NCBI GenBank assembly: GCA_023701385.1
Contig: JAMPXC010000005.1
Coordinates: forward strand, 42,747 to 106,746
Source of the DNA: Pseudobdellovibrio sp.
GTDB taxonomy: Bacteria; Bdellovibrionota; Bdellovibrionia; Bdellovibrionales; Bdellovibrionaceae
Direction: 5' to 3'
DNA: 64,000 nt
Made by a program: the position numbers and the translations under genes. Positions 17,935 through 40,791 of this stretch are shown here, one piece after another. The first letter of the stretch is position 1; each line of letters opens with the position of its first letter. Under the pieces are notes generated by a model. It was not told the origin of the DNA and ran no database searches. It worked only from the letters and a program-made list of their open reading frames with translations.

Positions 17935-20900
17935 ATGTCTGAAAATAAAATTACAAACGATAACGAAAATAGAAAAATCGAACGTGATAGCCGTTACTGG
18001 AGATCTTTCGAAGAGTTAAACAACACTCCGGAATTCCAAGCCGCATTACAAACAGAATTTATGTCATCACCTTTACGTGATGAAAATAAAGATGAAGGTA
18101 CAGAGAAAGACGGCGTTGCTCGTCGTGATTTCTTAAAATTGATGGGTGCTTCAATTGCCTTAACATCTGCAGCTGGTTGTATCCGCCGCCCGGTACAAAA
18201 AATTGTTCCGTACAACAAACAACCTGAAGAAGTAACAGTGGGTATGTCTAACTGGTACACCAGTTCATACTTTGATGGCCAAGAGGGTTTAGGTTTATTA
18301 GTTAAATCTCGCGAAGGTCGTCCGGTTCACATCCAAGGAAATCCAAAATTTCCTTTAAACGGCACAGGTGCTTCAGTTAAAGCTCAAGCTTCTTTACTTG
18401 GTTTATACGAACCAAACCGTTTACAAAAACCTTTCAGAAATTTATTTAACGAAAAACGCACCAACAAAGAAACTGTTGGTGTTTCTTGGGAAGAGTTAGA
18501 CAATAAAGTTGTTGAAGCTCTTAAAAAAGGTGGCGTAGCTATCCTTTCTGGAAATATTTCTTCTCCATCTACAAAAGCTGTAATTTCTGATTTCCGTTCA
18601 GGTTTTGGTGCTGACCACTACGTGTGGGAGCCTTTAGCTGATAACGTGGCGGATGCTCAAGCTTCTTCATACGGTGAAGCTTTAGTTCCAGGTTACAGAT
18701 TTGATAAAGCGCAAGTGATTGTTTCAATTGATGGTGACTTCTTAGGTACTTGGGGTCCAACAATGACAAACAACAAACGTTTTGCTGATGGTCGAAGACA
18801 ACTCGACAAAATGTCTAGACTTTACTCTTTCGATTCAACTTACTCATTAACGGGTGCTAACTCCGACGTTCGTTTCAAAATTAAACCATCACAGCAATTT
18901 GATGTTGTTATGGGTTTAATCGCTGAAATCGTTGGTAAAGTGAATGTTTCAGACGCTGTTAAAACGGCGGTGGCTCCATTCAACGGAGTCGCTGAAAAAC
19001 TTGGTATCTCTGCAGAAGCTTTCAAAAAAGTAGCTGATGATTTAGTTAAAAACCAAGGTGAATCTTTAGTTGTTGCTGGTGGTATCCAAACAAATACTAA
19101 AGACGGTCATGCTCTTCAAGTTGCTGTGAACTACTTAAACTCTATCTTAGGTAACGAAGGTAAAACTGTAGTTGCTCAAGCGGGTAATAAGAACATCACG
19201 GCTTCTCAAGACAGCATTAAAGCTTTAATCAAAAAAATGAATGATGGAGCCGTTAAAACTCTTATCATCTACAGATCGAATCCTTTCTACGCTTTAAGTG
19301 CTGATCATGGCTTTGCTGATGCTCTTAAAAAAGTAGAAACAGTTATCTATTCTGGCGAAAAGATGGATGAAACTGCCGTTAACGCTCACTTTGTTGTTTC
19401 AGACAACCATGCTTTAGAAACTTGGGGCGATTCTGAATTCGCCACTGGTTTATATGGTATTCACCAGCCACTTATCCGTACGATGTATGATACACGTTCG
19501 TTCCAATTATCGTTAATGACTTGGGCGTACATGGCGAAAGTTGGTCCTAAACGTATTCAAGAATTTGAAACTTACTACGACTACTTACGTAACTTATGGA
19601 AAACTGAGTTAATGGCTAAAGCCGGTGGCGGTAAAGATTTCGAATCTTTCTGGAATAACTTCTTACAAGAAGGTTTCGTTGGTGATGTTGCGGCTGGTTC
19701 AGCTCGTAATTTCAAAGGCGATGTTTCTGGACTTAAAAAATCTGCAAACGGCGATGCTAAATTTGAATTAGCATTATATCCAACTGTAAATATCGGTGAT
19801 GGTACTTTAGCTAACGTTGGTTGGTTACAAGAACTTCCAGATGCAGTTACTAAAATCGTTTGGGATAACTACGCTTGCGTTTCTGTTAAAACAGCTGCTG
19901 AAAACAAACTTCGCGAAGGCGATGTGATCGAGTTAACAGTTGGCGATAAAAAATTATCTTTACCAACGCACATTCAACCAGGTTTACATGATCAAGTTGT
20001 AGCTGTAGCCGTAGGTTACGGCCGCACACACGCTGGTGATGTAGCTAAAGGTATCGGTCAAAATGCATTCACATTAGCAACGGCTGGTGTATTTGCAGGT
20101 CAATCTGTTGAATTCAAAAAAACAGGTCAAAAAATTGAATTAGTGACAACTCAAGGTCACGATTCAATGGAAGGCCGTCAAATCGTTGTCACTGCAACGA
20201 ATAAAGATATCGAAAAAAATAAAGAAGCAAATATTCACAGACACCACACATGGAATATCTGGTCAGGTCACCAATACAACGGACACAAATGGGGTATGGC
20301 GATCGATCTAAACGTATGTACTGGTTGTTCTGCGTGTATGACGGCTTGCCAATCTGAAAACAACATTCCTGTTGTTGGTAAGAAATATGTTATGCAAGGT
20401 CGTGAGATGCACTGGATCCGTATCGATAGATACTACACAGGCACTCCTGAAAATCCAGAAACAGTATTCCAACCTGTCATGTGCCAACACTGTGACAATG
20501 CTCCGTGCGAAACGGTATGTCCGGTAGTAGCTGTGACTCACAGTTCTGAAGGTTTAAATGAACAAGTGTACAACCGTTGCGTTGGTACTCGTTACTGTTC
20601 AAATAACTGCCCTTATAAAGTTCGTCGCTTCAACTGGTTCAACTACGCGAAGTTAATCGAAAAACCAATGCACATGCACTTAAACCCAGAAGTGGGCGTA
20701 CGTTCTCGCGGTGTTATGGAAAAATGTACTTTCTGCGTTCAACGTATCAAAGAAGGTAAAAACAAAGCTAAACAAGAAGATCGTCCGGTAAAAGATGGCG
20801 ATATCAAAACAGCGTGTGAAGCGGCTTGTCCGACAACAGCTATCGTGTTTGGCGATTTAAACGATGAAAATTCTCGTGTTGCTAAAACTTTCAAAGCTGA

Positions 20901-21015
20901 GCCACGTGCTTACGCTTTATTAGAAGAGTGGTACGCGAAACCTTCAGTTCGTTATCAATCGAAAATTAAAAACAATGATCAGGTGACAGCACCGAAAGGA
21001 GCTGACCATGCTTAA
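17935..21015 (+). CDS. actB: ActB: Tat-exported molybdopterin-oxidoreductase-like / iron-sulfur subunit of ACIII
   Basis: 1026 aa. A cytoplasmic N-tail precedes a twin-arginine motif at residues 63-64 ([13 protein letters not shown]). The middle (about 80-780) is the molybdopterin-enzyme-like fold, which in ACIII has no cofactor. The C-terminal 230 residues hold four cysteine clusters: [38 protein letters not shown], and CTFC with CEAACP. This is consistent with three [4Fe-4S] and one [3Fe-4S] centres. It sits on the periplasmic face and links quinol oxidation in ActC to ActA haems. It overlaps actC by 8 bp. Confidence 0.95.
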
Positions 21016-22375
21016 GCGTAATCAGCTTGTTCTTGGTAACAAGACTTTAAAAGACGTTACAGATGATATCTGCGCTCCGATTGAAAGAGTTCCATCTAAA
21101 GAATGGATGGGCTTATTCTTGACTGCAAAAGGTTTATTTATTTTTTACATCCTGACAATCGCTATGGTTGTTTCGACTGGTATCGGTTTGTTAGGGGTGA
21201 ATCACCCGGTGGCTTGGGGTACGATGATTATCACTTTCGTATTCTGGGTAGGTATCGGTCACGCCGGAACACTTATCTCGGCCATCTTATTCTTATTCCG
21301 CCAAAAATGGAGAACTTCAGTAGCTCGTTCTGCTGAGGCGATGACAGTATTCGCGGTTGCGACTGCGGGTATCTTTCCATTAATTCATACTGGTCGTCCT
21401 TGGTTAGACTTCTGGTTATTCCCTTATCCGAATCAACGTGGTCCATTATGGGTGAACTTCCGTTCTCCATTATTATGGGACGTTTTCGCAGTTTCTACTT
21501 ATGCGACAGTTTCATCTGTATTCTGGATCGTGGGTATGATTCCGGATTTAGCAACTGTTCGTGACCGTGCGAAAAATGCGATTCGTAAAAAAGTCTACGG
21601 CGTATTATCAATGGGCTGGAGAGGGACTGCTAAACAATGGTCACACTTTGAAATGATTTACTTAGTGTTAGCTGGTCTTTCTACGCCGCTCGTATTATCG
21701 GTACATACAATCGTATCGTTCGACTTCGCGGTTTCAGGTCTTCCTGGTTGGCATACGACAATCTTCCCTCCGTACTTCGTTGCGGGTGCGATCTTCTCGG
21801 GTTTTGCGATGGTTATTACGTTAATGACGTTAGTACGTATCGGTTTCCCGCAGTTTAAAAACTACATCACGATCGATCATATGGAAGTTATGAATAAGAT
21901 CATCATGATGACTGGTTTAATGGTTGGTTACGCTTACGGAGCTGAGTTCTTAATTGCTTGGTACTCTGGAAATGATTACGAACGTTATGTTTTCATGAAC
22001 CGTGCGATGGGTCCTTACGCTTGGTCATACTGGATCATGATCTGCTGTAACGTTATTATCCCGCAATTATTCTGGTTTAAAAAATTCCGTCGTTCGATCC
22101 CAGTGATGTTCGTTGTTTCTATCTTCGTAAACATCGGTATGTGGTTTGAGCGTTTCGTAATTACAATTACGTCATTACACCGTGATTTCTTACCGTCGAA
22201 CTGGGGCCAATACGCTTGGTCGATGTACGATACGGCGATCTTAGTTGGATCGTTTGGTATGTTCTTCACGATTTTCTTATTATACTTACGTATTTTTCCT
22301 GCGATCTCGATTGCCGAAGTTAAACCGGTATTAAATGTGGGTAAAGAAGATGAACATCATGGGAAGGGACACTAA
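21008..22375 (+). CDS. actC: ActC: NrfD/PsrC-like quinol-oxidising membrane subunit of ACIII
   Basis: 455 aa with about ten transmembrane helices and short charged loops, as in PsrC/NrfD proteins. [24 protein letters not shown] and [36 protein letters not shown] hold the conserved His, Asp and Arg residues of the quinol site and proton path. It overlaps actB by 8 bp, implying translational coupling. The Act order and the NrfD-type helices leave little doubt about the assignment. Confidence 0.93.
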
Positions 22376-22377
22376 TC

Positions 22378-22908
22378 ATGGCTAAGAAAAGAGCTATCGG
22401 CGGTATCGCTGGAATTTTTCTTGATGAAGCTACAACAATCAAAGCTGCTACTCGTGTAAGAGAAGCAGGTTTTACAAAATTTGATGCTTTAACTCCATAT
22501 CCGGTTCACGGCATGGAAGAAGCTTGCGGTATTAAACGTTCACCAATCCCTTATGTGACTTTCGCAGCAGGTTGTGTGGGTTTATTAGCTGGTTTAGCAT
22601 TAACTTATTACACTTCTGCAGTAGACTGGGCGATCAACATCGGTGGTAAACCAATGTTTTCATTACCTGCATTCGTACCTATCATGTTCGAATTAACAGT
22701 ATTATTTGCAGCTTTAAGTTCAGTAGGTGCTTTCTTTTATCTATCTGGTATTCCAAGAGTTGATCCACCGATCATCGATAAAGACATCACTTGCCATAAG
22801 TTTGCGATTTTCATTCCTGAAAATGACGTAGGCTATAGTGCTGATCGCGCAGAAAAACTTTTAAAAGATTTAGGCGCTGTTGAAATCAAGAAAATGGCGG
22901 AGTACTAA
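22378..22908 (+). CDS. actD: ActD: membrane subunit of ACIII (DUF3341)
   Basis: 176 aa. The soluble N-terminal part ends with ALTPYPVHGMEEA, the family signature (PFPVHGxxxA elsewhere). Two transmembrane helices follow (VTFAAGCVGLLAGLALTYYT and FVPIMFELTVLFAALSSVGAFFYL), then a C-terminal alpha/beta stretch (EKLLKDLGAVEIKKMAEY) that reads like a ferredoxin-fold tail. It is a structural subunit with no cofactor. Two bases separate it from actC, and its stop precedes the actE ATG by one base. Confidence 0.9.
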   Translation: MAKKRAIGGIAGIFLDEATTIKAATRVREAGFTKFDALTPYPVHGMEEACGIKRSPIPYVTFAAGCVGLLAGLALTYYTSAVDWAINIGGKPMFSLPAFVPIMFELTVLFAALSSVGAFFYLSGIPRVDPPIIDKDITCHKFAIFIPENDVGYSADRAEKLLKDLGAVEIKKMAEY

Positions 22909-22909
22909 G

Positions 22910-23488
22910 ATGAATATTCAGTTGAGAAGTTTAACTAATCTTTCAATGACAGTGATTGCGGCTTCTTTAGCAGTATCGTTTTTCTCGAGCTGCAGAGGCG
23001 GAAACAATCAAACGAACATCGAGTTAATCCAAGATATGATGGAATCTCCAGCGTTAAAAGCCCAAGAGTACGACGAAGGTGCTCCAAACAATTCGGCTAT
23101 GCGCGTTCCACCAGAAGGCACACAGCCGCAAGGTTTTGTTCCTTATAAATACGCTGATGTAGTAGCTGCTGCAGCTAATCCAAATCCGTTGAGCGGCCAG
23201 TACACTGAAGAAGTTTTGAAAGCTGGAACTAAATACTACGCAATTCACTGTGCAATCTGCCACGGCGCTAACGGCCAAGGTGGAGAACAGCAATCTGTAG
23301 CTGAAACGATGGCATTAAAACCACCAACATTAACTTCTGATAAAGTTAAAGGTTGGACTGATGGTCAAATCTACCACGTGATCACTATGGGGCAGGGTGT
23401 GATGGGTCCGTATGCGGCTCACATTCCGCAAAAATACAGATGGCAAGTTGTTAACTACATCCGTCACTTACAAGGTAAAGGTAACTAG
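22910..23488 (+). CDS. actE: ActE: monohaem cytochrome c lipoprotein subunit of ACIII
   Basis: 192 aa from the ATG at 22910 (Met11 of the track ORF), chosen because GGAG lies 8 nt upstream and because it starts right after the actD stop. The signal peptide ends in a lipobox (FSSC). There is a single haem motif CAICH near residue 115 and a likely distal Met ligand in ITMGQGVMGPYAAHI. It is a lipid-anchored periplasmic cytochrome that accepts electrons alongside ActA. Confidence 0.93.
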   Translation: MNIQLRSLTNLSMTVIAASLAVSFFSSCRGGNNQTNIELIQDMMESPALKAQEYDEGAPNNSAMRVPPEGTQPQGFVPYKYADVVAAAANPNPLSGQYTEEVLKAGTKYYAIHCAICHGANGQGGEQQSVAETMALKPPTLTSDKVKGWTDGQIYHVITMGQGVMGPYAAHIPQKYRWQVVNYIRHLQGKGN

Positions 23489-23490
23489 TC

Positions 23491-24687
23491 ATGGATTCAT
23501 CGAATCATTCACATGAATTAAAATTAAACAAATTCGAAGCTCCACAACAGCTTAAAACGGCAATTTTTGCAGCGATGTTTATCGGATTTTTAGGGTTAGC
23601 TTATGGCTTATTTAAAGCTCCAGATCGTTTATGGACTTCTTATTTAGTCTCATTCTTCTTCTTTGCTTGTTTAGGTTTAGGCGGGATGTTTTTCATCTCT
23701 TTTAACCATGTAGCAGGAGCAGGCTGGAGTGTTTCTATTCGCCGTATCGCTGAAAGCTTCACAAGCTTTTTACCAGCTATGTTTATCGGAAGCGTGATCT
23801 TAATCCTTGGTTTTAAATACCTATACCCATGGGCAGATCCTTCGCAAGCTCATCGTCTGACGGGTGGTAAAGCGCTTTACTTGGCGCCTTGGTTTGTAAC
23901 TTTACGCTTAGTGATTTTCGGTATCGGTTGTTTAATTTTCAAAAAGATCATGGTTGGAAATTCAATCAAGCAAGATCAAAATGGTGACCATGCTCTAACT
24001 CATAAAAACGTAGGGTTTTCAGTTGGTTTCATCGCTTTCTTCGCGATCTTCTTTACATTATTTTCAATCGACTTATTAATGTCATTGTTACCAAGCTGGT
24101 ATTCGACGATTTATGGAATCTACGCTTTTGCGGGCATGATCCAGTCAACAATGGCGGTTTTAGCATTAATGATTATCTGGTTAAAAAACTCTAAATGGGT
24201 TTCTGGATACATTACTGTTGAACACCAACATGACGTAGGTAAATACATGAAAGGTTTCACGATCTTTTGGGCCTACATCGCGTTCTCTCAATTCATGTTA
24301 ATCTGGTACGCTAACATTCCAGAAGAAACTGAATTTTACTTAATGCGTTCTCACAGCGGATGGTTAGGCGTTTCGGTTGCGCTATTAGTTTTCCGTTTCG
24401 CGGTGCCATTCTTAGCGTTACTTCCAAGAGATGCTAAACGTAACGACATGAACTTAGCAGCAGTTTCAATCCTAGTTCTTGTTATGCAATACGTAGATCT
24501 TTACTGGTTAGTTTACCCGAACTTCTTTGATGGTATTCCTCAATTTGGTTTTCTAGAAATCAGCATTTTTGTTGGTTTTGCAGGTGTGTTCTTGAAGTTA
24601 ATGACTGGTTTCATGACTAAGAACAACCTAGTGGCAATTAAAGATCCTCGTATGCACGAGGCTTTAAACCACCACGTTACTTACTAA
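23491..24687 (+). CDS. actF: ActF: second NrfD-like membrane subunit of ACIII
   Basis: 398 aa with about ten hydrophobic helices. It resembles ActC in architecture but lacks an obvious quinol-site His/Asp cluster, as expected for ActF. It contains the segments NHVAGAGWSVSIRRIAESF and LPSWYSTIYGIYAFAGMIQS. Two bases separate it from actE. It closes the act operon. The cytochrome oxidase genes that often follow act genes in other phyla are absent here. Confidence 0.92.
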   Translation: MDSSNHSHELKLNKFEAPQQLKTAIFAAMFIGFLGLAYGLFKAPDRLWTSYLVSFFFFACLGLGGMFFISFNHVAGAGWSVSIRRIAESFTSFLPAMFIGSVILILGFKYLYPWADPSQAHRLTGGKALYLAPWFVTLRLVIFGIGCLIFKKIMVGNSIKQDQNGDHALTHKNVGFSVGFIAFFAIFFTLFSIDLLMSLLPSWYSTIYGIYAFAGMIQSTMAVLALMIIWLKNSKWVSGYITVEHQHDVGKYMKGFTIFWAYIAFSQFMLIWYANIPEETEFYLMRSHSGWLGVSVALLVFRFAVPFLALLPRDAKRNDMNLAAVSILVLVMQYVDLYWLVYPNFFDGIPQFGFLEISIFVGFAGVFLKLMTGFMTKNNLVAIKDPRMHEALNHHVTY

Positions 24688-27867: not shown

Positions 27868-28587
27868 TTAGTTAGGGCAGATCAGATTTTTTTCTTCATC
27901 TGTGATCTGAAGTTCCTTATCATCAAAGCGTTTAAACCTTTCAACCTTCGTCATCACTGATTTATACTCTTTTGTATCATTGCCATCGGTATTTTTGCGC
28001 CAGTAAGTTAAAGCTTTTTTATTATTCCAGCCGCAGAATTGCATAAGATTAATCGCGGCAGCATAGCCTGAAGCATGCCAGCCATTCCAACAATGACCGT
28101 ACATCGGACCCGGGATTTCGCCTTTGATATGTTTGTGCACTTGGGTAAGAAGAGCTTTTTCATTTCCAGATTTTAACGAAGCAAGATGGAGATATTCTAA
28201 CTTTTGTTCTTTACCGCAAGAGATGATTTTTTCTGATTCATCGTAATTATCTTTATAGAAATACATCGCCTCAGAAAAACCTTGTTTGCAAAGATTTTCT
28301 AAACCCCCTTGCGGAAGTGGGTTTTGGTTGTCACGTTTTGTATGCTTATTAAATTTGTTATTCGCGCCACCGCGGTAGTAAATACCATTTAAAACTACGC
28401 GAAAGTTTCTTGTTCCGTAAAGGTCATCGTTTCCATTACCTTTGTTATTGGTTTGCTTATTGTAAACGTCTTCCAGCGGGTAGAGCTTTTTATACTTTTC
28501 AACTTGAGACTTTAAAGAAAAAGCCGACTTTGTGTTGTTCGCCAAAGCCGGCCAAGAGATAAGAAATAGAAGTAGATATTTAGTCAT
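27868..28587 (-). CDS. Secreted dual-specificity-phosphatase-like protein with degenerate P-loop
   Basis: 239 aa. The signal peptide is MTKYLLLFLISWPALA. The middle follows the order of the tyrosine/dual-specificity phosphatase fold: GIYYRGGANN (compare LYRSGxP), GGLENLCKQGFSEAMYF, then GPMYGHCWNGWHASGYAAA near residues 157-175 where the HCxxGxxR(S/T)G loop should be, and finally a helical tail with WNNKKALTYW. In the loop the catalytic Arg position reads Ala, so activity is doubtful; it may bind a phospho-ligand instead. It lies 18 bp after the kinase-like gene and is the last gene of the - strand run. The family call rests on motif order only. Confidence 0.5.
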   Translation of the reverse strand: MTKYLLLFLISWPALANNTKSAFSLKSQVEKYKKLYPLEDVYNKQTNNKGNGNDDLYGTRNFRVVLNGIYYRGGANNKFNKHTKRDNQNPLPQGGLENLCKQGFSEAMYFYKDNYDESEKIISCGKEQKLEYLHLASLKSGNEKALLTQVHKHIKGEIPGPMYGHCWNGWHASGYAAAINLMQFCGWNNKKALTYWRKNTDGNDTKEYKSVMTKVERFKRFDDKELQITDEEKNLICPN

Positions 28588-28605: not shown

Positions 28606-29943
28606 TTATTGGTTTTCTTGCATTACTACGCGGCAGTCAGGTACTGCTTGTCCAGCAAATGCGCTATCAAGGTCCAGATCTAAAGTTAATTGACCAGCTT
28701 GGCATGTTTTAATTAATGCCGCTGTCGCGTAACCAACGTTAGCTTTGAAAGTAGCGATATCAGTCGAATTCATTGCTGTTTCACGTTTGAAGTAACCAAC
28801 ACCAGCGTCAGTGTTGATAATTTTGTTAAGTTTTAATAATTTTGCGAAAGTCTCAGGGTTAAAGTGTTTTAAACCTTCGATTAACTTAGCATTTTTAAGA
28901 TGGTTTTCTTTAGAAACACCGCAATCATTATCTTTCATCATCATTTTTTTAAGCTCAACAACTTCAGTAGCTGTCGTATCGTCTTTATCTAACTTTTTGA
29001 TTTCAAGTTTACCGTTTTTGCCAACTATTTTACCGTATCTTTCCATTGTGTAATGTAAGTTACCTAAACGATCTTGTTGGCTTAACATTGTATCCATTAA
29101 AATCATATCAGCTACGTTTTGCATTTTTAAAATTTCCTGAGCTTGGGCTGCAGACCACTTAAGACCTAAGCTAGATAGTTTTTGATCGCTGGTCAAACGT
29201 AAGTAAGTCGTATTTTTAGCTTTGAAGTTAGCTGTACGAGTCGGTTGGTCAGAGCCACCGTTAAACATCTCAGTGTATTTTTCTTCTTTAGATGGATTCA
29301 TTTGTAAAGCGCCGAAGCTGTAGTTGTAATCATCAGTGAAGATGTTAGTAGCTTTGGCGTGAGCTTGCTTTTTAGTTAAGATTGATAAAAGACCAGCCCA
29401 AGTTTGTGCGATAAGTTCTTGTTTGTTGCTGATACCAGCATAAGTTTTATCGCCGATTGATTTATGTAAGTTAGCATCAACTGTACGTAATACAACTGGA
29501 GGAACTTGGTTGATATTACCTAAAAAGCGAGACACATGGTAATAAGCTAAAAGCGACGGTGTATAAGAACAGCTCGTGCTTGATTTATACTTAGCTAATT
29601 TTTTGAAATCTTTTTGTGTCGCTGTTTCTTTGCGTTCACAGTTCATAGCTTGAACTTGTTGAGCCGTCATACCTTCTGGTACTTGGAAAAATTCCAAAGC
29701 TGGGTTTGTAGAGGCTGTTTTACCGCAAACAGCAGCTGTTGTTCCGATATTTAATCCGCAAAGATCGCGCTCGCGTTCAAGATCTTTTTTAGAGTAATCG
29801 GCACCTTCAAGACGGTTAGGAATATAACAAAGTTCACCTCTGTCTAACTGAATTAATTCAGCGCCACGGCCCGGTAAATTCGGAGTTAAGGTCGCTTGAG
29901 CTAACATCGGAGCTAAAAGTAACGCAACAACTGTCTTTTTCAT
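28606..29943 (-). CDS. Secreted protein with FAM20-like kinase motifs
   Basis: 445 aa. The signal peptide is MKKTVVALLLAPMLAQA. Three segments line up with secretory-pathway FAM20 kinases. LLAYYHVSRFLGNINQVPPVV (131-151) resembles the AFHLDRILGF-x-VPP region. VADMILMDTMLSQQDRLGN (277-295) resembles the catalytic loop DMAIFDFLIGNMDRHH. KDNDCG (337-342) resembles the metal-binding DNGRGFG. The helix-C Glu found in active FAM20 members reads Leu here, so it may be a pseudokinase. Cys residues (for example 39, 62, 73, 102, 125, 341, 414, 437) suit an oxidising periplasm. A phosphatase-like gene follows 18 bp downstream. The similarity is from memory of the family, not from a search. Confidence 0.45.
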   Translation of the reverse strand: MKKTVVALLLAPMLAQATLTPNLPGRGAELIQLDRGELCYIPNRLEGADYSKKDLERERDLCGLNIGTTAAVCGKTASTNPALEFFQVPEGMTAQQVQAMNCERKETATQKDFKKLAKYKSSTSCSYTPSLLAYYHVSRFLGNINQVPPVVLRTVDANLHKSIGDKTYAGISNKQELIAQTWAGLLSILTKKQAHAKATNIFTDDYNYSFGALQMNPSKEEKYTEMFNGGSDQPTRTANFKAKNTTYLRLTSDQKLSSLGLKWSAAQAQEILKMQNVADMILMDTMLSQQDRLGNLHYTMERYGKIVGKNGKLEIKKLDKDDTTATEVVELKKMMMKDNDCGVSKENHLKNAKLIEGLKHFNPETFAKLLKLNKIINTDAGVGYFKRETAMNSTDIATFKANVGYATAALIKTCQAGQLTLDLDLDSAFAGQAVPDCRVVMQENQ

Positions 29944-29991: not shown

Positions 29992-31416
29992 TTAGTGGCC
30001 GTCGTTTGTGATCAGCTCAGTCGCTGATGCACGTAAGTAGTTGAACTTACCCGGATGGTTAATATTCGTCACAAAGCCATTATAAAGACCAACAACACTG
30101 TGAAGAATACCCTGATCAAACGGTTGGTGTTGCACTAACGTCGCAGATTTAGGGTCAGAGAATTTCACGCCCATCACATCAACAACTAAGTTAATCGGTA
30201 ATTTTAATTCTACGTGGCGAGCATCGTTTTCACCGGTTGCTAAACGGTTATTGTTTTTTAAGACAACCGTTGGATCTTTTAGGCCACGGGCCGAATACAT
30301 ATTTCCTAAGTAAACACCTTGGTTACGGTCTACAGTCGTTTGGAATCCGGAAGTCGATTCAAAAGCACTGCGGTGGTACGCTGTAGCGCCTTCGATTTGT
30401 AAGAATAATGGATTACCGTTAACACCTTCAGCCAAGACTGCGAAGATCGCTTTAGCGCGCGCTGCTAAAGAAGGATCTTTAGCAGAGATTTCTTGAGTGA
30501 TTTTTTCTAAACGAGCTAAAGACTCAGCTTTTTGGCCTTCAGCGTTTTTAGCTTTTAACGGAGCAAATAGCATATCAACTTGGGCTTGCGATAAAGACAC
30601 ATCAAGCTTTTGTACGTTATGGTTGCCGTTTAAGTTTTTATATTTCGGGCTTTGAATCATATCATCAAGAGCTGATTTGATTTCTAACTTATAGGATTTG
30701 CCGTGCGGAGCAAACATTTTAAAAGTAGTTCCAAAGCGTGATTGCATTTGTGCTAAAGTTAAAACTTTACTTTCGCCGTTAACATTTAGATCAAAAACGC
30801 CATCATGTTTTTTAGTGATAGTTATTTTTGAACCGTTAGCTAACGAACCTGCTACTGGAACATCAACAGTCATTTTTTCAAAATTCACTTCACGTAAGTA
30901 AGTTCTGATGCGCGGTTGGTGTTTAGCAGCACCCGTCGCATCAATAAGTGGTTTTGTGTAGTAAGTAAATGTTGAATCAGTTGCACCCTCTGGAGGTGGA
31001 GCATCACGCACAGTTAATTTATCATTTGCGTTTGTTAAGCCTTTAACTTGCAGTTCATACATACGTTGGTGAACTTGGCGAGTAAAGCCTTCTGATTTAG
31101 GGTCTAAGTCTTTTAAAACAGCTGATAGTGTTTCAGGTGATAAATTTAATTTAACTAAGTTATAAACATACTCATTAGAACGAAGAACTGATAATTTAGT
31201 TTTCCATTCGCTGCGCCATACCGTCGCTAATTTTCCTGAAAGGGTAGCGCGTAAGTTGTTTAATAAAGTCACGAAGCGGTCTTTAACTTGAATTTTATCA
31301 ACCGTTCTAGCCTGAGGTGCTTGTTTGCCAGAGAATAAATCTACGCAGGCATTCGCGGCTAGCGAGTGGCTTGAGTATAATTGAACTGCTAATAATAAAC
31401 CTAATAAGTTTTTCAT
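29992..31416 (-). CDS. Secreted protein, family unknown
   Basis: 474 aa. The signal peptide is MKNLLGLLLAVQLYSSHSLA; the mature end NACVDLFSGK carries the CxxLF motif shared with two neighbours. After a helical region (30-150) comes a beta-rich stretch with RIRTYLREVNF and SYKLEIKSAL, a spacing faintly reminiscent of RxRxY...LExK in VTC/CYTH polyphosphate polymerases, but too weak to name. The C-terminal third contains IEGATAYHRSAFES and HVELKLPINLVVDVMG. It starts 4 bp after the stop of the preceding gene, so the two are co-transcribed. Confidence 0.55.
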   Translation of the reverse strand: MKNLLGLLLAVQLYSSHSLAANACVDLFSGKQAPQARTVDKIQVKDRFVTLLNNLRATLSGKLATVWRSEWKTKLSVLRSNEYVYNLVKLNLSPETLSAVLKDLDPKSEGFTRQVHQRMYELQVKGLTNANDKLTVRDAPPPEGATDSTFTYYTKPLIDATGAAKHQPRIRTYLREVNFEKMTVDVPVAGSLANGSKITITKKHDGVFDLNVNGESKVLTLAQMQSRFGTTFKMFAPHGKSYKLEIKSALDDMIQSPKYKNLNGNHNVQKLDVSLSQAQVDMLFAPLKAKNAEGQKAESLARLEKITQEISAKDPSLAARAKAIFAVLAEGVNGNPLFLQIEGATAYHRSAFESTSGFQTTVDRNQGVYLGNMYSARGLKDPTVVLKNNNRLATGENDARHVELKLPINLVVDVMGVKFSDPKSATLVQHQPFDQGILHSVVGLYNGFVTNINHPGKFNYLRASATELITNDGH

Positions 31417-31420
31417 ATGC

Positions 31421-32710
31421 TTATTTCACACCTTGTGCTTGTTGTGGCACGGTTGGCATTCTGCCTTGTTCTTTAATAAATTTAATTAATTCAGGATATT
31501 TAGCTGCTGAAATTTCCATAACCATGTACTGGATACCCGGGCCTGCCGTTGACACCTTTTCTTGAGCGAACACGATATAAGTGTGAACAGAGTTATTGTA
31601 AGGGTCAGCTTTTTCAAAGATCCAAGTTTGGTGGTCTCGTGAAAAAGAGCTTGTGTGATCTACCGTGATTTCTGACATATTCGGGCCGTAGTACGGAGCT
31701 TTGCTGTCAGCAAAAGACTGAATTTGTTTATTTATCTCAGCAATTTCCAGTTTTAACTGCATAGCTTGCGCTGGAACATCAAAGCCATTGATTTTACTTT
31801 GCATATACGAACCAGTTTCACGCTGAGCCATCATAACAACAACCTGTTCACCAGCTGGCGTTGGATTGTCGGTTTTAAGCATATTAATAGGAGTATTTGA
31901 AATACCGGTTGCAAGGATGATAAAGCCCATACCGATCGCCGCTTTCATTGGTTCTTTAAATAAAACTTTAAAGAAAACATCGCGAGCTCTGCGGAACTCA
32001 AACACCGTGCGGATTTTTAACATTGAGTTGGTTTGTAATAACTTACGTAATTCATCTTTTTTGAAGTATTCAAAAAACTTAGATAATTTATCGATTTTAT
32101 TTAACAAAGGGCCATCAATAATAAGGGGGATTCTGATTTTAGCGTTGATGCCTTCACCTAAAATATCGCCTAGCTCATGTTCAGCTTTTTTAATCTTAAC
32201 TTCGCCAGCTTTTAAAAAACCTTCAGCGACTTTTTTAGAGCCTGTGCCTGTTGGCGTACGTAAAGTGATTTTATCCACCATAAATTGGCTACGTTCGCTA
32301 GACATAGATTTATAAGTCACTTCGAAATAGTAACCATCTTTAACTGGAATACCGATAGAAAGCTCGCCTTTAGTTAAAACGTTTTTCTCTTCTAGAACAT
32401 ATGAAGAGTTTTGTAATAACATACGCATCATTTCGATAGAAGCTTCATCAGTTTTTTGAGAAAAACCTAATTCTTCGATAACTAATTTTTCTGGGGCTTC
32501 AGTGTTTGTATGTTTCTTTAATTCAACGCGGTTTGAATTAGACTGAACTTTTTCGATAATAACGGGAATCTTACGCGCCGGAGCCGGTAATAAACCTGCA
32601 ATCACTGGTTTTTCTTCGCCACCGAACATAAGTTGGCAGCTAGGGCCAGCATAAGAAAGTGATGAGCCGATGTACGATAATAAAAATATAATTGCGGTAA
32701 AGATTCTCAT
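31421..32710 (-). CDS. Secreted protein with internal hydrophobic segment, family unknown
   Basis: 429 aa from the ATG at 32710. The track start (32728) is a TTG without a ribosome site, and Met7 opens a normal signal peptide (MRIFTAIIFLLSYIGSSLSYA). The mature end is GPSCQLMFGG, again Cxx(L/M)F. A single internal hydrophobic helix (MKAAIGMGFIILATGISN, about residue 260) may anchor it in the membrane. The C-terminal domain has EITVDHTSSFSRDHQTWIFE and ends Gln/Pro-rich. A good promoter lies just upstream, so this gene probably heads the 32710-27868 operon. No function can be assigned. Confidence 0.6.
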   Translation of the reverse strand: MRIFTAIIFLLSYIGSSLSYAGPSCQLMFGGEEKPVIAGLLPAPARKIPVIIEKVQSNSNRVELKKHTNTEAPEKLVIEELGFSQKTDEASIEMMRMLLQNSSYVLEEKNVLTKGELSIGIPVKDGYYFEVTYKSMSSERSQFMVDKITLRTPTGTGSKKVAEGFLKAGEVKIKKAEHELGDILGEGINAKIRIPLIIDGPLLNKIDKLSKFFEYFKKDELRKLLQTNSMLKIRTVFEFRRARDVFFKVLFKEPMKAAIGMGFIILATGISNTPINMLKTDNPTPAGEQVVVMMAQRETGSYMQSKINGFDVPAQAMQLKLEIAEINKQIQSFADSKAPYYGPNMSEITVDHTSSFSRDHQTWIFEKADPYNNSVHTYIVFAQEKVSTAGPGIQYMVMEISAAKYPELIKFIKEQGRMPTVPQQAQGVK

Positions 32711-32741
32711 ACCAGTTGGTATAATCAAGAAATGTACCGCT

Positions 32742-32771
32742 ATTATAGGTTATATTGTTTTTAAGTGTCTC
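32742..32771 (-). promoter_or_regulatory. Probable promoter of the secreted-protein operon
   Basis: On the minus strand: -35 GAGACA (32771-32766), 18-bp spacer, perfect -10 TATAAT (32747-32742). Transcription would start near 32735, about 25 nt before the ATG at 32710. Confidence 0.5.
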
Positions 32772-32822
32772 AGTTTGATAAGGAGTGCGCGAAAAGGCAC
32801 AGATTGATATGACACTGTCTAA

Positions 32823-33701
32823 TTATTTTTCACCTTCGTAACGGTAGCGTTCTAAGAACCATTCCACACGGTTACGTAGTTTTTCAGGGAATTCGACAAG
32901 TGTAGTGTCAGTGATTTCGCCTCTGATAATTTGGGCCGCGTAATCATCACAAACTTCGCCCAGTTTTTTATTAAGCTTTTTCAAGAAGTCGATTTGTTCG
33001 TTATCACCTTCGTTTTTATCCGCATTTAAACGAACTTCACCGCTGATTTTAAGCTCACTTTGGATCTGCATAAAGCGTAAGATATCACGCATGTTTTTAC
33101 GAACATCATGAAGCTCATCAACTTCCATAACCTGTTTAGACATGATTAGGCGGGTGTCTGTGATAATGGCTTCAAAGTACTTTTTAACTGATTTTCTCGA
33201 GGCAGGTTTGATGTCTTTTAAAAGACCTTCAAAATCAACCTCAACGAATTTCTTTAAGAGCTTTTTAGCGGCTTTTTGCGCCTGTACGCCTTCGCCAATA
33301 TTAACCATGTCTTTTAGATGGCCGAAATCACGAACGAATTTAGCATACTTTTCAGGGCTGATGTGCTTTTTACTCGATGTTTGGAATACAGAGCGTAAGA
33401 ATGAAGTGTCTTGGCGAAATTTATTGATCATCACTTTTTGCTCAGGCGTGATATCCGCAAGACCTGATTCACGGATCGTCATAAGAACAGTTTTAAGCTC
33501 AGCAAGATCTGCACTGCTTATTAGGTTAGTATGAGCTGTTTCTAAGTAGCGCTCAGATTCTTTTTTGCCGTTAATCTGGATTACGAACTCTTGAACATCG
33601 TACTCTTTAGAAAATAAGTTTTTGCACGACAGAGCTTCGGCCTGTGCGTACAGAGAAGAAAGAGCTAGCGATAGAATAATAATTAATCTGGATGCATTCA
33701 T
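32823..33701 (-). CDS. Secreted helical protein, family unknown
   Basis: 292 aa from the ATG at 33701. The track start at 33761 adds 20 residues ahead of a clean signal peptide (MNASRLIIILSLALSSLYAQAEA). The mature end is LSCKNLFSKEYDV, the third CxxLF in a row. The rest is charged and strongly helical (KAAKKLLKKFVEVDF, DELHDVRKNMRDILRFMQIQ). A single Cys near the N-terminus and one near the C-terminus (GEVCDDYA) could pair. It has its own unit between the terminator at 33793-33814 and the promoter at 32742-32771. Confidence 0.6.
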   Translation of the reverse strand: MNASRLIIILSLALSSLYAQAEALSCKNLFSKEYDVQEFVIQINGKKESERYLETAHTNLISSADLAELKTVLMTIRESGLADITPEQKVMINKFRQDTSFLRSVFQTSSKKHISPEKYAKFVRDFGHLKDMVNIGEGVQAQKAAKKLLKKFVEVDFEGLLKDIKPASRKSVKKYFEAIITDTRLIMSKQVMEVDELHDVRKNMRDILRFMQIQSELKISGEVRLNADKNEGDNEQIDFLKKLNKKLGEVCDDYAAQIIRGEITDTTLVEFPEKLRNRVEWFLERYRYEGEK

Positions 33702-33783
33702 ACGCCACAGAATATACTGTTTTTGAAACTTCAATTTCAACTGTAATGATTCTGACAGCAAGCTGTCGAACTTTTGATTGTTT

Positions 33784-35658: not shown

Positions 35659-36744
35659 ATGTCTGCAAACTACACCGATAAACTCTCGGCAAAACATGCG
35701 AATAAATTTTCGGATTTTGAGCAACGCAAGAAAGCTCATATTGATCTATCGTTAGATTCAAGAACGCAGGCGCAGACAGCTTCGCACTTTGAAAAAATCA
35801 AACTTATTCACGAAGCGCTTCCAGAAATTAATTTATCTGATGTTTCTTTAGAAACAAAACTTTTAGGTTACCAATTTTCTTCTCCGCACTTTGTAAGTTC
35901 AATGACGGCCGGTCATCAGAATAGCAAGGTGATTAATCTTCGTTTGGCAAAAGCAGCTGCCGAAAAAAATTGGTTAATGGCCGTCGGTTCACAACGTCGT
36001 GAACTGACTGACTCACAAGCTTCGTTTGAGTGGAAGGCGATTAAATCGCAATCTCCAAAAACGCAGTTTGTTTCAAATATTGGTCTTGAAGAATTAATCC
36101 AACAGCCAACGATTGAAATTTTAAAATTAACTGAATCAGTTGAAGCTTTAGGAATTTACATTCACTTAAATCCATTACAAGAAGCTTTTCAAAATAAAGA
36201 TCAAGCGAATTTTAAAAACGGACTAGCTGCGATTAAAAAACTTTGTAAAGCTTCACCGGTTCCAGTTCTTGTTAAAGAAGTTGGATACGGTATTTCAAAA
36301 ACAACAGCACAAAAATTATTATTAGCTGGCGTTGAAGTGATCGACGTGGCTGGTAAAGGTGGAACTCATTGGGGCTTATTAGAAGGCCTACGTGATCAAA
36401 CGGATGCGGGTCTTTTAGCTGACGCAAGTACAGCATTTAAAGACTGGGGCTTTAGTGCTGTTGAAAGTTTAATTCAATGTAAAGCATTAACGAAGAAAAA
36501 CCATTTCTGGGCGTCAGGTGGAATCCGCACAGGCGTTGATTCGTTAAAGTGTTTAGCGCTTGGTGCAAGAGCAGTTGGCGTGGCTCAGCCTCTAATGAAA
36601 TCGGCTATTGAATCGGATCAACATGTTGTCGATGTGATGACTCGTTTTGATTACGAATTAAAAGTGGCTCTTTTTGGTGTGGGTGTTTCTAATCTAAAAG
36701 AGTTAGCGAAAAAAAAGGTATTTTATGTTAACGGAACTATTTAA
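35659..36744 (+). CDS. fni: Type 2 isopentenyl-diphosphate delta-isomerase (FMN)
   Basis: 361 aa. FEQRKKAHIDLSLD near residue 21 is the family N-terminal signature (RKxDHIxL). The TIM barrel shows VSSMTAGHQNS (FMN-binding), VDVAGKGGTHWGLLE (phosphate loop) and WASGGIRTGVDSLKCLALGARAVGVA. It interconverts isopentenyl and dimethylallyl diphosphate in the cytoplasm using FMN and NADPH. First gene of the mevalonate operon, overlapping mvaA by 20 bp. The ribosome site is weak, only CTCTCTCAAA before the ATG. Confidence 0.93.
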   Translation: MSANYTDKLSAKHANKFSDFEQRKKAHIDLSLDSRTQAQTASHFEKIKLIHEALPEINLSDVSLETKLLGYQFSSPHFVSSMTAGHQNSKVINLRLAKAAAEKNWLMAVGSQRRELTDSQASFEWKAIKSQSPKTQFVSNIGLEELIQQPTIEILKLTESVEALGIYIHLNPLQEAFQNKDQANFKNGLAAIKKLCKASPVPVLVKEVGYGISKTTAQKLLLAGVEVIDVAGKGGTHWGLLEGLRDQTDAGLLADASTAFKDWGFSAVESLIQCKALTKKNHFWASGGIRTGVDSLKCLALGARAVGVAQPLMKSAIESDQHVVDVMTRFDYELKVALFGVGVSNLKELAKKKVFYVNGTI

Positions 36745-38005
36745 AGGTTTTTCTAAACTAAACTACAATGAGCGTTTGCAGGCTTTAAAAAAAGCCGGTG
36801 TATTAAATGCTGATGAAATCACTTACTTAGCTAATGGTGGTCTACAAACGATCGATCTTGGCGAAAAATTTATTGAAAACGTTTTAGGTTATTTTCAAAT
36901 CCCAATGGGTGTTGCCACTAACTTTAATGTTGATGGTAAAGACTATGTGATTCCAATGGCGGTTGAAGAAACATCAATCGTAGCAGCTGCCAGTAAAACG
37001 GCTAAATGGGTGCGCGAGCACGGTGATATTACCACTGAAGTGATTGGCGCTGATATCATCGGTCAGATCCAGTTTGCTAAAGTTAAATCTCCTGAAGAAT
37101 TTAAAAAACAAATTTTACAGCAAAAATCTTATTTAATTGAACTGGCAAACCGCGAAGTGGCTTTTGGTTTAGTAAACCGTGGTGGCGGTGTTAAAGATTT
37201 AACTGTTCGTATTATTGACCGTGAAGATGGTTATTATATGGGTGTTGTGCACATTATGATGGATCCTTGTGATGCCATGGGTGCCAATATCATCAATCAA
37301 GTGTGTGAATTTTTAAAACATCCGCTTGAGCAATTTACTTCTGAAAAAGTAACGATGTGTATCTTATCTAACTTAGTGGATACTAAGTTAACTAAAGCCA
37401 CTGTGAGAATGAAAAACGTAGACCCTGAATTAGCTCTTAAAATTGAAGAGGCGTCTCGCTTTGCTGAGCTTGATCCTTACCGTGCAGCCACAAATAACAA
37501 AGGCGTATTAAACGGTATTGACCCGATCTTAATCGCAACAGGTAACGACTGGCGCGCAGTTGAAGCAGGAATCCACGCGTTTGCTGCCCGTGATGGCCGT
37601 TATAAATCTATCACGAAATGGCGTGCCGCAGGTACTGAGCTTGTTGGTGAATTCGTTGCTCCGTTAGTAGTGGGTACTGTGGGTGGTGTTACAGCTCTTC
37701 ATCCAACAGCTAAACTTGGTCTTAAAATTTTAGGTGTGAATTCAGCCTCTGAATTATCACGCATTATTGCTTCTGTTGGACTTGTTCAAAACTTAGGAGC
37801 GTTACGCGCCTTAACTACAGTGGGCATCATCGAAGGCCATATGAAACTGCATATTAAGAATTTATCTTTAGGTGCAGGTGCGACCGAGAAAGAAATGCCT
37901 TTTGTTGTTAAAAAGTTAGAAGAAATTTTAGCTTTAAGAAAAAGAATTTCTTTAGCTAATGCTGTTGAAGTTTTAAATGACCTTAGAAAAAAATCTGAAA
38001 TTTAA
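36725..38005 (+). CDS. mvaA: Hydroxymethylglutaryl-CoA reductase, class II
   Basis: 426 aa, the length of bacterial class II HMG-CoA reductases. ENVLGYFQIPMGVATNF holds the substrate-binding Glu, MDPCDAMGANIINQVCE is the cofactor-binding region, and the C-terminal catalytic His is in GIIEGHMKLH. It converts HMG-CoA to mevalonate (in reverse in degraders such as Pseudomonas mevalonii). Its place among mevalonate kinases supports the biosynthetic direction. It overlaps fni by 20 bp and the next gene by 29 bp. Confidence 0.94.
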   Translation: MLTELFKGFSKLNYNERLQALKKAGVLNADEITYLANGGLQTIDLGEKFIENVLGYFQIPMGVATNFNVDGKDYVIPMAVEETSIVAAASKTAKWVREHGDITTEVIGADIIGQIQFAKVKSPEEFKKQILQQKSYLIELANREVAFGLVNRGGGVKDLTVRIIDREDGYYMGVVHIMMDPCDAMGANIINQVCEFLKHPLEQFTSEKVTMCILSNLVDTKLTKATVRMKNVDPELALKIEEASRFAELDPYRAATNNKGVLNGIDPILIATGNDWRAVEAGIHAFAARDGRYKSITKWRAAGTELVGEFVAPLVVGTVGGVTALHPTAKLGLKILGVNSASELSRIIASVGLVQNLGALRALTTVGIIEGHMKLHIKNLSLGAGATEKEMPFVVKKLEEILALRKRISLANAVEVLNDLRKKSEI

Positions 38006-38864
38006 GCCAGAGAGTTTTACTGTTCCAGGTAAAACATTTTTAGTGGGCGAGTACGCTGTGTTATCGGGCGGCGCTTGCCTAGGTCTTGGAACGAACCCTA
38101 GTTTTTCAATCGAATTAAATTTTGCGCGCCAGACTTTTCATCCTGATAGTCCTGCTGGTTTGTATCTTCGTAAAAATAATTTACCGAACTTTTCGCATGA
38201 ATTTAACAATCCTTATGGGGTTGGTGGTTTTGGCGCAAGCACGGCTGAATTTATTTTTAGTTATTTTTCAAACCCACAGGCTTCTAAAAAAATAGAGGAT
38301 ATTTTTTCTACCTATCTTGGTCTTTACAGTGAACGTAAAGAGCAAAAACCAAGTGGCGCTGATTTAGTGACTCAGCTTATCGGTGGCATTAGCCATATCG
38401 ACTTATCAAATGGGATTCCTAAAGTTGAACGCTTGTCTTGGGATTTTAAAGATCTAGAATTTTTAATTTATTCAACTGGTCTTAAAGTTAAAACGCATGA
38501 ACACTTAAGCCACCTTGATCGCCAAATCTGTGATGGTTTAGTTAAACCTTGTGAAGAAGTGATTGCCGCTTTTAAAACTAATGACAGCGGTACTTTTAAA
38601 AGTGCATTGGCAGGTTGGAGCAAAAAACTTGAGCAATTGGGTTTAACAGCTTCTGAGGTCTTAGATCTTAAAACACGCTTAGAAAGTCATATTCCCGGTA
38701 TCCTGGTTAAACCGTGTGGGGCTTTGGGTGCAGATGTGATCGTGATTTTAGTCGCTAAAGAGCAAAAACAGAGCGTTTTAAGCCAGATTGAAGCTCTTAA
38801 CTTAAAGGGGCTTACTTTCCAGGCGGATTCATCGCATTTGGCAAATGGCCCTTTGTCAATCTAG
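37977..38864 (+). CDS. mvaK2: GHMP kinase, probable phosphomevalonate kinase
   Basis: 295 aa. FTVPGKTFLVGEYAVLSGGA near residue 17 is GHMP motif 1 in the phosphomevalonate-kinase form, GVGGFGASTAEF near residue 82 is the glycine-rich ATP loop, and LVKPCGALGADVIVILV is motif 3. Two other GHMP enzymes in the operon are better matched to mevalonate kinase and the decarboxylase, which leaves this one as phosphomevalonate kinase by elimination. It overlaps mvaA by 29 bp, a tight coupling. Confidence 0.7.
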   Translation: MTLEKNLKFKPESFTVPGKTFLVGEYAVLSGGACLGLGTNPSFSIELNFARQTFHPDSPAGLYLRKNNLPNFSHEFNNPYGVGGFGASTAEFIFSYFSNPQASKKIEDIFSTYLGLYSERKEQKPSGADLVTQLIGGISHIDLSNGIPKVERLSWDFKDLEFLIYSTGLKVKTHEHLSHLDRQICDGLVKPCEEVIAAFKTNDSGTFKSALAGWSKKLEQLGLTASEVLDLKTRLESHIPGILVKPCGALGADVIVILVAKEQKQSVLSQIEALNLKGLTFQADSSHLANGPLSI

Positions 38865-38887
38865 CTAGCTTTTGTTAGAGTTTGCGA

Positions 38888-39883
38888 ATGTCTAACACTC
38901 AGATTTCGTCGAATATTTGGTTCGAAGCCAGTGCACCTTCTAATATTGCGCTGATCAAGTATATGGGTAAAACCGATACGGTAAATAATCGCCCAACAAA
39001 TTCGTCGTTATCATGGACTTTAAATAACTTAAGAACTTTCGTACGTATCAAACAAAACGCTGATCTTAAAGAAGACCAGTGGAACCCGTTTGTGCGTAAT
39101 GATTTACGCCCGATCGATTTATCGGAAAAAGGCAAAAAAAAGTTTTTAGATTTTTTTGCAAAACTTAAAGCTGAATTTAAACTGACTGGCTTTTTTGAAA
39201 TCGAATCAGCCAATAACTTTCCATCAGATTGTGGTCTTGCAAGTTCAGCAAGTAGTTTTGCAGCGTTGACCTTAGTGGCTCACCAATTCGCTGGTGCTCG
39301 TTACTTACCAAAAGAATTAGCCAAGCTTTCACAAAAAGGTTCTGGTTCTTCTTGCCGTTCGTTTTTTACGCCTTGGGCGCTATGGCATGAGGCAGGCGCT
39401 GAAGAAATGGCTTTACCCTTAAAAGATTTAAAACACATGGTGATCTTATGTGATGAAACTAAAAAAGCTGTTTCATCAAGCCAAGCCCATGTTCAGGTAT
39501 TAACTTCTGATTTATTTAAAGGTCGCCCAGAGCGCGCCGCAGATCGTTTGCAAAAACTAGTGACGGCTTTACGTAAACCAGAAGGCCAATGGAAAAATAT
39601 TTTCGAAATCTGCTGGAATGAATTCTGGGATATGCACACGCTGTTTCACACATCAGTGCCGGCTTTTATGTATTTAAACGGCGATGGCTTTTCAGCGTTA
39701 TCACAAATTCTAGAGATGTGGCATCAGGACGGAGATGGCCCGATTGTAACGATGGATGCAGGAAGCAATATTCATTTGTTGTTTAGAAATAACCAACCAG
39801 ATGCTTACGCCAAATATCAAGAGCATTTTAATAACCAATTTAACCTATGGACTGATAGCGGATACCAAATCCGTAAAGACTAA
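38888..39883 (+). CDS. mvaD: Diphosphomevalonate decarboxylase
   Basis: 331 aa from the ATG at 38888; the track start (38882) is an upstream TTG. ASAPSNIALIKYMGKTD is the family N-terminus (APxNIALIKYWGK), and NNFPSDCGLASSASSFAAL holds the ATP loop and the SAxSxxA pattern. MDAGSNIHLLF near the C-terminus is the conserved DAGxN. It decarboxylates mevalonate diphosphate to isopentenyl diphosphate with ATP. Two bases before the mevalonate kinase gene. Confidence 0.93.
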   Translation: MSNTQISSNIWFEASAPSNIALIKYMGKTDTVNNRPTNSSLSWTLNNLRTFVRIKQNADLKEDQWNPFVRNDLRPIDLSEKGKKKFLDFFAKLKAEFKLTGFFEIESANNFPSDCGLASSASSFAALTLVAHQFAGARYLPKELAKLSQKGSGSSCRSFFTPWALWHEAGAEEMALPLKDLKHMVILCDETKKAVSSSQAHVQVLTSDLFKGRPERAADRLQKLVTALRKPEGQWKNIFEICWNEFWDMHTLFHTSVPAFMYLNGDGFSALSQILEMWHQDGDGPIVTMDAGSNIHLLFRNNQPDAYAKYQEHFNNQFNLWTDSGYQIRKD

Positions 39884-39885
39884 CT

Positions 39886-40791
39886 ATGAATAATTCTGAG
39901 ACGACTTTAAAATCAGATTGGACAGTTCAGGTTCCGGGTAAGTGGATCTTAGCCGGTGAACACGCTGTTCTTCGCGGATCACAGGCAATTGTGTTTCCGT
40001 TAAAGTCTCGTTTTTTAAGTCTTTCGTATTTTAATACCGCATCAGAATTTAAAATTCATATCGCCGGGATCTGTGCTTCTGATCTAGAGATGATTATCTG
40101 GTCAGTGGTTGAACGTGCGATGAGTGAGTTAGGAATTAAACGCTCTGACCTTAAGGGTGACCTTAAGATTTATTCGCATATTCAGTTTGGTGCTGGTATG
40201 GGGGCTTCGGCAACTCTTGCAGTGGGTTTAACTTTATTCTTTCAACACTTAGGTGTTTTAAAAACTGATCCGTTCTTATTTGCTAAAAAACTAGAAGATT
40301 TATTTCACGGCGAAAGCAGTGGGGTGGATGTGGCTGTTGCGCTTCATCAAAAACCGATGATCTTTGAAAAAAACAAAGAGAATATCTTTTTTGATTTAGC
40401 AAAACTTCCGCTTTTATATTTATCGTACACAGGCCAACGTGGTGTTACGAAAGACTGTGTAAATAAAGTCAAAAACTTGATCTCTGAAAAGCCTGAACAG
40501 GGGCAAGCGATCGATGAACGTATGAAAAAAGTGGTGCAAGATTTTATCAAAGCCCGCTTTGAATGGACACAAACCGAGTGGATTGAACATTTAAATATGG
40601 CGCAGAGCTGTTTTGAAAGCTGGGATTTGGTTCCTTCAGCGGTGCAAAGCCATATGCAGCAACTTAAAAAGGCCGGTGCTTTAGCTTGTAAATTAACCGG
40701 CTCTGGCAGTGGTGGTTATGTTTTAAGTTTATGGAATGAAAAACCAACTTCACCTGAATTAACTTCTGAACTTATTCCTGTATTTTTATAA
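39886..40791 (+). CDS. mvaK1: Mevalonate kinase
   Basis: 301 aa. VPGKWILAGEHAVLRGSQAIVFPL is the mevalonate-kinase motif 1 (PGKxxLxGEHxVxxGxPAIA). FGAGMGASATLAVGL is the ATP loop, HGESSGVDVAVAL carries the catalytic Asp region, and KLTGSGSGGYVLSL is motif 3. It phosphorylates mevalonate to 5-phosphomevalonate. The gene order puts the first kinase step last among the three GHMP genes. Confidence 0.88.
   Translation: MNNSETTLKSDWTVQVPGKWILAGEHAVLRGSQAIVFPLKSRFLSLSYFNTASEFKIHIAGICASDLEMIIWSVVERAMSELGIKRSDLKGDLKIYSHIQFGAGMGASATLAVGLTLFFQHLGVLKTDPFLFAKKLEDLFHGESSGVDVAVALHQKPMIFEKNKENIFFDLAKLPLLYLSYTGQRGVTKDCVNKVKNLISEKPEQGQAIDERMKKVVQDFIKARFEWTQTEWIEHLNMAQSCFESWDLVPSAVQSHMQQLKKAGALACKLTGSGSGGYVLSLWNEKPTSPELTSELIPVFL

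Follow-up and report, generated by a model that had tools for sequence, protein, structure and literature searches.

The minus-strand gene at positions 28606..29943 of a 64,000-nt stretch of Pseudobdellovibrio sp. DNA (the window) encodes KIN, a 445-aa protein with an export-type N terminus and a putative atypical FAM20/PI3K-like kinase fold that lacks the helix-C Glu. The exported kinase-like proteins to which KIN belongs form a family that is new and has no name; it is best described as a divergent variant of the atypical FAM20/PI3K-like kinases. The family is conserved and paired with exported phosphatase-type proteins, which suggests a phosphate-handling module outside the cytoplasm; we consider it likely that KIN works in such a module with the exported phosphatase-fold protein encoded next to it, PTPL, as a (pseudo)kinase–phosphatase pair. 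This partnership, absent from the original prediction, is the most informative context of the gene. A search of open-licence papers found no description of the family or of its phosphatase pairing.

The minus strand of 28606..29943 forms an uninterrupted 445-aa reading frame, and the plus strand there has many stops. The N terminus (MKKTVVALLLAPMLAQA, then TLTP) resembles a Sec signal peptide on inspection; judged by eye, the predicted peptide covers residues ~1–18 (29890..29943, minus strand), with cleavage near AQA. The N-terminal region has a cysteine-rich stretch of its own containing C39, E58, C62 and K75. The frame, the signal-peptide-like N terminus and the motifs quoted in the original prediction are all present, the motifs being YHVSRFLGNINQVPPVV at residues 135–151, DMILMDTMLSQQDRLGN at 279–295 and KDNDCG at 337–342. 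Profile alignment with hhalign and conservation delimit an N-lobe segment at residues 116–139 (29525..29598, minus strand) with K118 and K120 as candidates for the β3 lysine, C125, and a helix-C region, SLLAYYHVSR, in which L131 sits at the kinase Glu position. The catalytic-loop equivalent spans residues 279–295 (29059..29109, minus strand; D284 ... D291-R292-x-G-N295), and conservation and cysteine co-variation mark residues 337–343 (28915..28935, minus strand; K-D338-N339-D340-C341-G-V) as the putative metal-binding, DFG-equivalent motif.

KIN relatives occur in 44 of 141 searched genomes of the order, the other 97 giving no match, and six more KIN-bearing genomes, from outside the order, came from searching the phylum by profile. 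A pattern scan with the single protein retrieved one relative from the GTDB collection, that of Bdellovibrio sp. qaytius, the closest named relative; IMG/VR scans found no KIN relatives. The assembly that contains the window carries a second copy on another contig, 38% identical. The family alignment comprises 66 distinct members from Bdellovibrionales and their phylum, to which the deep searches were confined. D284, D291, R292, D338, D340 and D422 are invariant (66/66), N295 and N339 are each kept in 65/66, and P148 and R153 each in 63/64. K120 is found in all 64 members having the residue, K75, C39 and C62 are invariant where present, and E58 is conserved in 62/63. Because the residues of the catalytic motifs are invariant or nearly so in 66 distinct relatives, the motifs are not a product of chance. 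The original prediction had staked its kinase assignment on conservation of the D-R and D-N-D residues, and both are kept in all relatives.

Searches of the single protein against Pfam, NCBIfam, PDB sequences and PADLOC, and of a 54-member alignment against Pfam and PDB sequences, gave chance matches only. Of the 54 members, none had Fam20C (PF06702) among its Pfam matches, whatever the E-value reported. The PF06702 profile was also run on 241 genomes of the phylum, several of them with KIN, and hit no KIN gene. With no score above the curated Pfam cut-off, KIN is not counted as FAM20 proper. At another locus in the phylum (L067), a weak match to Fam20C pointed to a different bacterial family, which we used as a comparator. 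This family is widespread and matches PI3_PI4_kinase (PF00454; E 1.5e-8) and, weakly, Fam20C (E 4e-4) and FAM20B in the PDB. The seed gene (L067:1084–3102, minus strand) and its relatives L088–L107 encode diverse PI3K/FAM20-like bacterial kinases, several on very long proteins.

Profile–profile alignment of KIN with the comparator yielded two collinear segments: residues 116–155, covering K120, helix C and VPP (score 32.1), and residues 275–319, from D284–D291 onward (score 26.3). No column shuffle of 150 reached either score (shuffle maximum 24.8 for the top score), and the reversed profile scored 12.9. Since hhalign itself assigns one segment a probability of about 20% and the other 5%, the case for a kinase rests on the shuffles, the collinearity and the register of the motifs; hhalign in global mode was uninformative. 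As to register, K120 aligns as a β3 Lys before helix C with the K of the comparator's x-x-K-P strand. A catalytic-type D-R with a conserved Asp seven residues before it is present in 66/66 members, and this D284-to-D291 spacing is the same in FAM20B ('FDFLIGNADRHH', PDB 5xom) and in the comparator ('FFDYLVANGDRHG'). A metal-type Asp equivalent to that of DFG is available as D338 or D340, both 66/66. Helix C starts without the metal-binding Glu, and the catalytic-loop Asn lies at D+4, not D+5.

Could the FAM20 motifs have arisen by convergence in a secreted, Asp-rich protein unrelated to kinases, whether an enzyme or a binding protein? The missing library match and the modest hhalign probabilities fit such an origin, as does the uninformative AlphaFold model of KIN and its orthologue at locus L032, in which too few sequences (two only) were supplied for a usable fold (pLDDT 35.5). 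We nevertheless regard convergence as highly improbable: two collinear profile matches fall at the functional motifs with 0/150 shuffles reaching either, the D-to-D spacing is that of FAM20B, the cysteine co-variation described below fits a kinase fold, and the genomic company of KIN consists of phosphatases and a kinase-clan domain. Together, these features make a strong sequence-based case that KIN very probably has a kinase-type fold. The FAM20-like motifs named in the original prediction thus hold in order and spacing and gain collinear similarity to a FAM20/PI3K-like bacterial profile, whereas membership of the FAM20 family itself finds no support.

KIN shares with FAM20A/B/C the secretory route, a β3 Lys, helix C followed by VPP in the same order and spacing, a catalytic D-R seven residues after a conserved Asp and a D-N metal motif. 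In FAM20C, the catalytic Asp of D-R is D458 and the metal-binding Asp, the DFG equivalent, is D478. Beyond lacking a PF06702 match, KIN differs from FAM20 in having hydrophobic or small residues in place of the Glu, D-N-D-C-G after the catalytic loop, the cysteine-rich N-terminal region, a bacterial origin and phosphatase partners. Most of the L067-type kinases, which match KIN best by profile in both N-lobe and catalytic loop, have retained the Glu along with D-R-H-x-x-N and either D-H-G or D-N-G; in contrast, KIN has neither the Glu nor the His, and its Asn is shifted by one. HipA kinases (PF07804) belong to the same broad atypical-kinase group and are common in these genomes, but are cytoplasmic toxins. 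The HipA fold, which the original prediction named for comparison, found no support as a relative of KIN in profile scores of 17.3 and 15.1, which are within noise. CotH (PF08757), described in the literature as FAM20-like, is bacterial and exported like KIN, but no profile similarity was detected (score 14.4, with a CotH alignment of at most 8 sequences). Neither HipA nor CotH is thus retained as home family, although these negatives are weak because the CotH and comparator profiles also fail to match each other.

The Leu that the original prediction read at the helix-C Glu position proves to be part of a family-wide loss. Position 131 is mostly Ile and otherwise Ala, Ser, Leu, Val, Pro, Asn or Met, with no Glu among the residues listed for the 66-member alignment. 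Loss of the FAM20 metal-binding Glu, as in the animal pseudokinase FAM20A, therefore also occurs in a large bacterial family. In FAM20A the metal-binding Glu of FAM20C is replaced by Gln; the protein needs no metal to bind ATP, and it allosterically activates FAM20C (PMC7948968; PMC5413348). Because KIN has lost the Glu yet kept its other centres, both outcomes are possible: it may be catalytic like FAM20C or regulatory like FAM20A.

Two cysteines of KIN co-vary. Among 63 full-length members, 39 have both C125 and C341, 23 have neither and 1 is discordant; on the tree each cysteine changes 5 times, and the two are present or absent together in 62/63. C125 lies six residues before the lost helix-C Glu and C341 directly after D-N-D. 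The co-variation fits a kinase fold because the start of helix C and the DFG equivalent are neighbours there, and we predict a C125–C341 disulfide joining the two. Speculatively, this bond may hold helix C in place of the Glu, or the vacated site may have been taken over by an acidic residue from elsewhere, for which the nearly invariant E58 is a candidate.

The next gene downstream, PTPL (27868..28587, minus strand), starts 18 bp after the KIN stop codon and encodes an exported 239-aa protein with the fold of protein-tyrosine/dual-specificity phosphatases. The fold assignment comes from hhalign (probability 97.5, P 6.8e-12, score 80.6 vs a shuffle maximum of 22.8), and many members of the PTP-like family also give weak direct matches to Pfam PTP families; an AlphaFold model of PTPL and two relatives was discarded (pLDDT 46.5). 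PTPL aligns over the whole domain with PTP/DSP phosphatases (PF03162, PF13350, PF22784; TpbA), with which it has the motifs NFRxVxxGxxYRGG and HCxxGxHxSG in common. Its P-loop, HCWNGWHASG, keeps Cys166 but is missing the CX5R arginine. This departure from PTP/DSP enzymes characterizes the core family, whose P-loop reads HCWNGWH[A/S]SG with Ala or Ser for Arg; only a distant member, L183, retains the Arg (HCTGGEHRSG).

Distribution and gene order tie the two families together. Of the 33 genomes of the order with a PTP-like gene, 32 also carry KIN, and all 14 genera with a PTP-like gene have KIN, vs 17/66 genera overall (hypergeometric 9e-12, with phylogeny corrected to genus level only). PTP-like genes adjoin KIN in 20/62 loci, downstream, divergent or upstream, and adjacency in three arrangements argues that the pairing survived rearrangement. 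One genome, G004, has KIN and no PTP-like gene, and no remnant of one was found beside KIN. An IMG/VR scan for PTP-like relatives returned a single arginine-less fragment (L193:20–217) at a contig edge beside phage-like genes, which may mark the border of a prophage or come from mis-binned DNA.

Elsewhere the neighbour is a different phosphatase fold. A calcineurin-like phosphoesterase adjoins KIN in 14/62 loci, mostly in clades without the C125–C341 pair, and its GD, GNHD and GHxH motifs are intact in nearly all members. A DUF2252-like gene (PF10009) lies within a few genes of KIN in nine loci, and at L149:6205–8673 (minus strand) KIN and a DUF2252 domain are naturally fused in one 823-aa protein, an informative link for predicting interaction. 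DUF2252 is listed among the kinase-clan Pfam families, with swapped lobes (PMC9758233). At 23/62 loci, some cut by contig ends, no such partner is directly adjacent. Lipobox-like N termini are found in 13/22 PTP-like proteins and 9/15 phosphoesterases vs 77/634 other genes. We set aside a simple N-terminal hydrophobicity test as evidence for export; it is too lenient, passing 58/62 KIN proteins but also 399/634 other genes.

How far either member of the pair is catalytic bears on a competing explanation, in which pseudokinase and pseudophosphatase both lack catalysis and serve in binding, as a scaffold or as allosteric activators of another enzyme; KIN might, for example, activate the DUF2252-like kinase, in clades that carry it, as FAM20A activates FAM20C. 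The Glu is absent from all KIN members and the Arg replaced in nearly all PTP-like members, FAM20A offers a precedent for an allosteric activator with Gln at the metal Glu (PMC7948968; PMC5413348), and in several genomes a DUF2252-like kinase is fused or adjacent to KIN. However, a dead kinase would not usually keep K120, D291, N295, D338 and D340 at full or almost full invariance, as this family does, and the alternative phosphoesterase partner keeps its motifs in nearly all members. On balance, a doubly inactive pair strikes us as plausible but somewhat unlikely.

Under the preferred phosphate-handling module, the site of action would be the periplasm, the outer membrane or, once KIN is released, the prey. 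A centre composed of K120 and D291/D338/D340 would bind metal and nucleotide; in nucleotide binding we have moderate confidence. KIN would then either transfer phosphate or bind nucleotide to regulate its partner; the latter option is proposed because the helix-C Glu is missing as in FAM20A. The phosphatase-fold partner, the PTP-like protein at the window locus and the calcineurin-like phosphoesterase in other clades, would reverse or read the mark: the phosphoesterase by hydrolysis, whereas the arginine-less PTP-like protein would more likely bind a phosphorylated group than remove it. Direct functional coupling between KIN and partner is likewise moderately supported. A narrower version, serving phospho-signalling or phosphate handling, in which a Glu-less kinase fold, held by the disulfide in most clades, cooperates with an arginine-less PTP fold outside the cytoplasm and a metallophosphoesterase replaces the latter elsewhere, is possible but unlikely; if true, it would imply chemistry outside the classical kinase and PTP mechanisms, or would give FAM20A/FAM20C regulation a bacterial counterpart.

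ATP is not known to occur in the periplasm, which speaks against the module. Textbooks place no ATP outside the bacterial cytoplasm, and phosphorylation there is a little-known subject for that reason. An active KIN could instead be exported to a place that does contain ATP, namely the cytoplasm of the prey while predation is under way, and be controlled by the phosphatase partners. The original prediction had raised export into prey, and the conserved catalytic residues, the export signals, the closest named relative in Bdellovibrio sp. qaytius and the family's occurrence in the Bdellovibrio phylum, on which the deep searches were made, are compatible with it. We consider this improbable, since nothing in our analysis links the KIN gene to prey, 97/141 genomes of the order have no KIN match, and the high share of lipobox-like partners suggests anchoring in the predator envelope. 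Either way, with KIN and two unrelated phosphatase folds in hand, envelope or prey phosphorylation of proteins or polymers by predatory bacteria becomes directly testable.

Another genomic context invites an envelope role. In Bdellovibrio genomes, the locus of KIN (and PTPL) abuts a DUF4956–HlyD–outer-membrane protein–VTC cluster (L053:1875–6247, with equivalents in 12 more loci) resembling CotH–VTC–DUF4956 clusters. CotH provides the model: this secreted kinase keeps company with VTC (polyphosphate polymerase) and DUF4956 genes. In the same phylum it lies beside both in 4/8 loci and has only VTC nearby at a fifth locus, and Pel operons include CotH, a polyphosphate polymerase and DUF4956 as accessory genes (PMC7112168). 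KIN could thus be the local CotH counterpart, modifying or regulating an exported polymer or polyphosphate, and in one Bdellovibrio genome a KIN of a different subclade runs in the same direction as the cluster. Yet at most Bdellovibrio loci KIN is convergent on the cluster rather than co-directional, and the association is seen in one genus only and is absent at the window locus; we consider this role rather doubtful.

In the window, KIN belongs to a same-strand run, P312–P435–P474–KIN–PTPL. P312 (32823..33761, minus strand), the upstream gene of the run and conserved in L032, is a possible operon start judging by gene spacing. P435 (31421..32728, minus strand) is an exported protein of unknown function whose relatives adjoin or lie near KIN in 7 loci including the window. 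P474 (29992..31416, minus strand), exported and likewise of unknown function, lies between P435 and KIN and has KIN as its neighbour at no locus other than this one and that of the closest relative. All three proteins (29992–33761) are exported, and in each the signal peptide is closely followed by a C-x-x-L/M-F motif. Rfam detected no RNA family in the 64,000-nt window. By eye, positions 17935–24687 hold an alternative complex III-like respiratory gene cluster, and 35659–40791 an apparent mevalonate-pathway cluster with genes for a type 2 isopentenyl-diphosphate isomerase, HMG-CoA reductase, mevalonate-type kinases and a decarboxylase.
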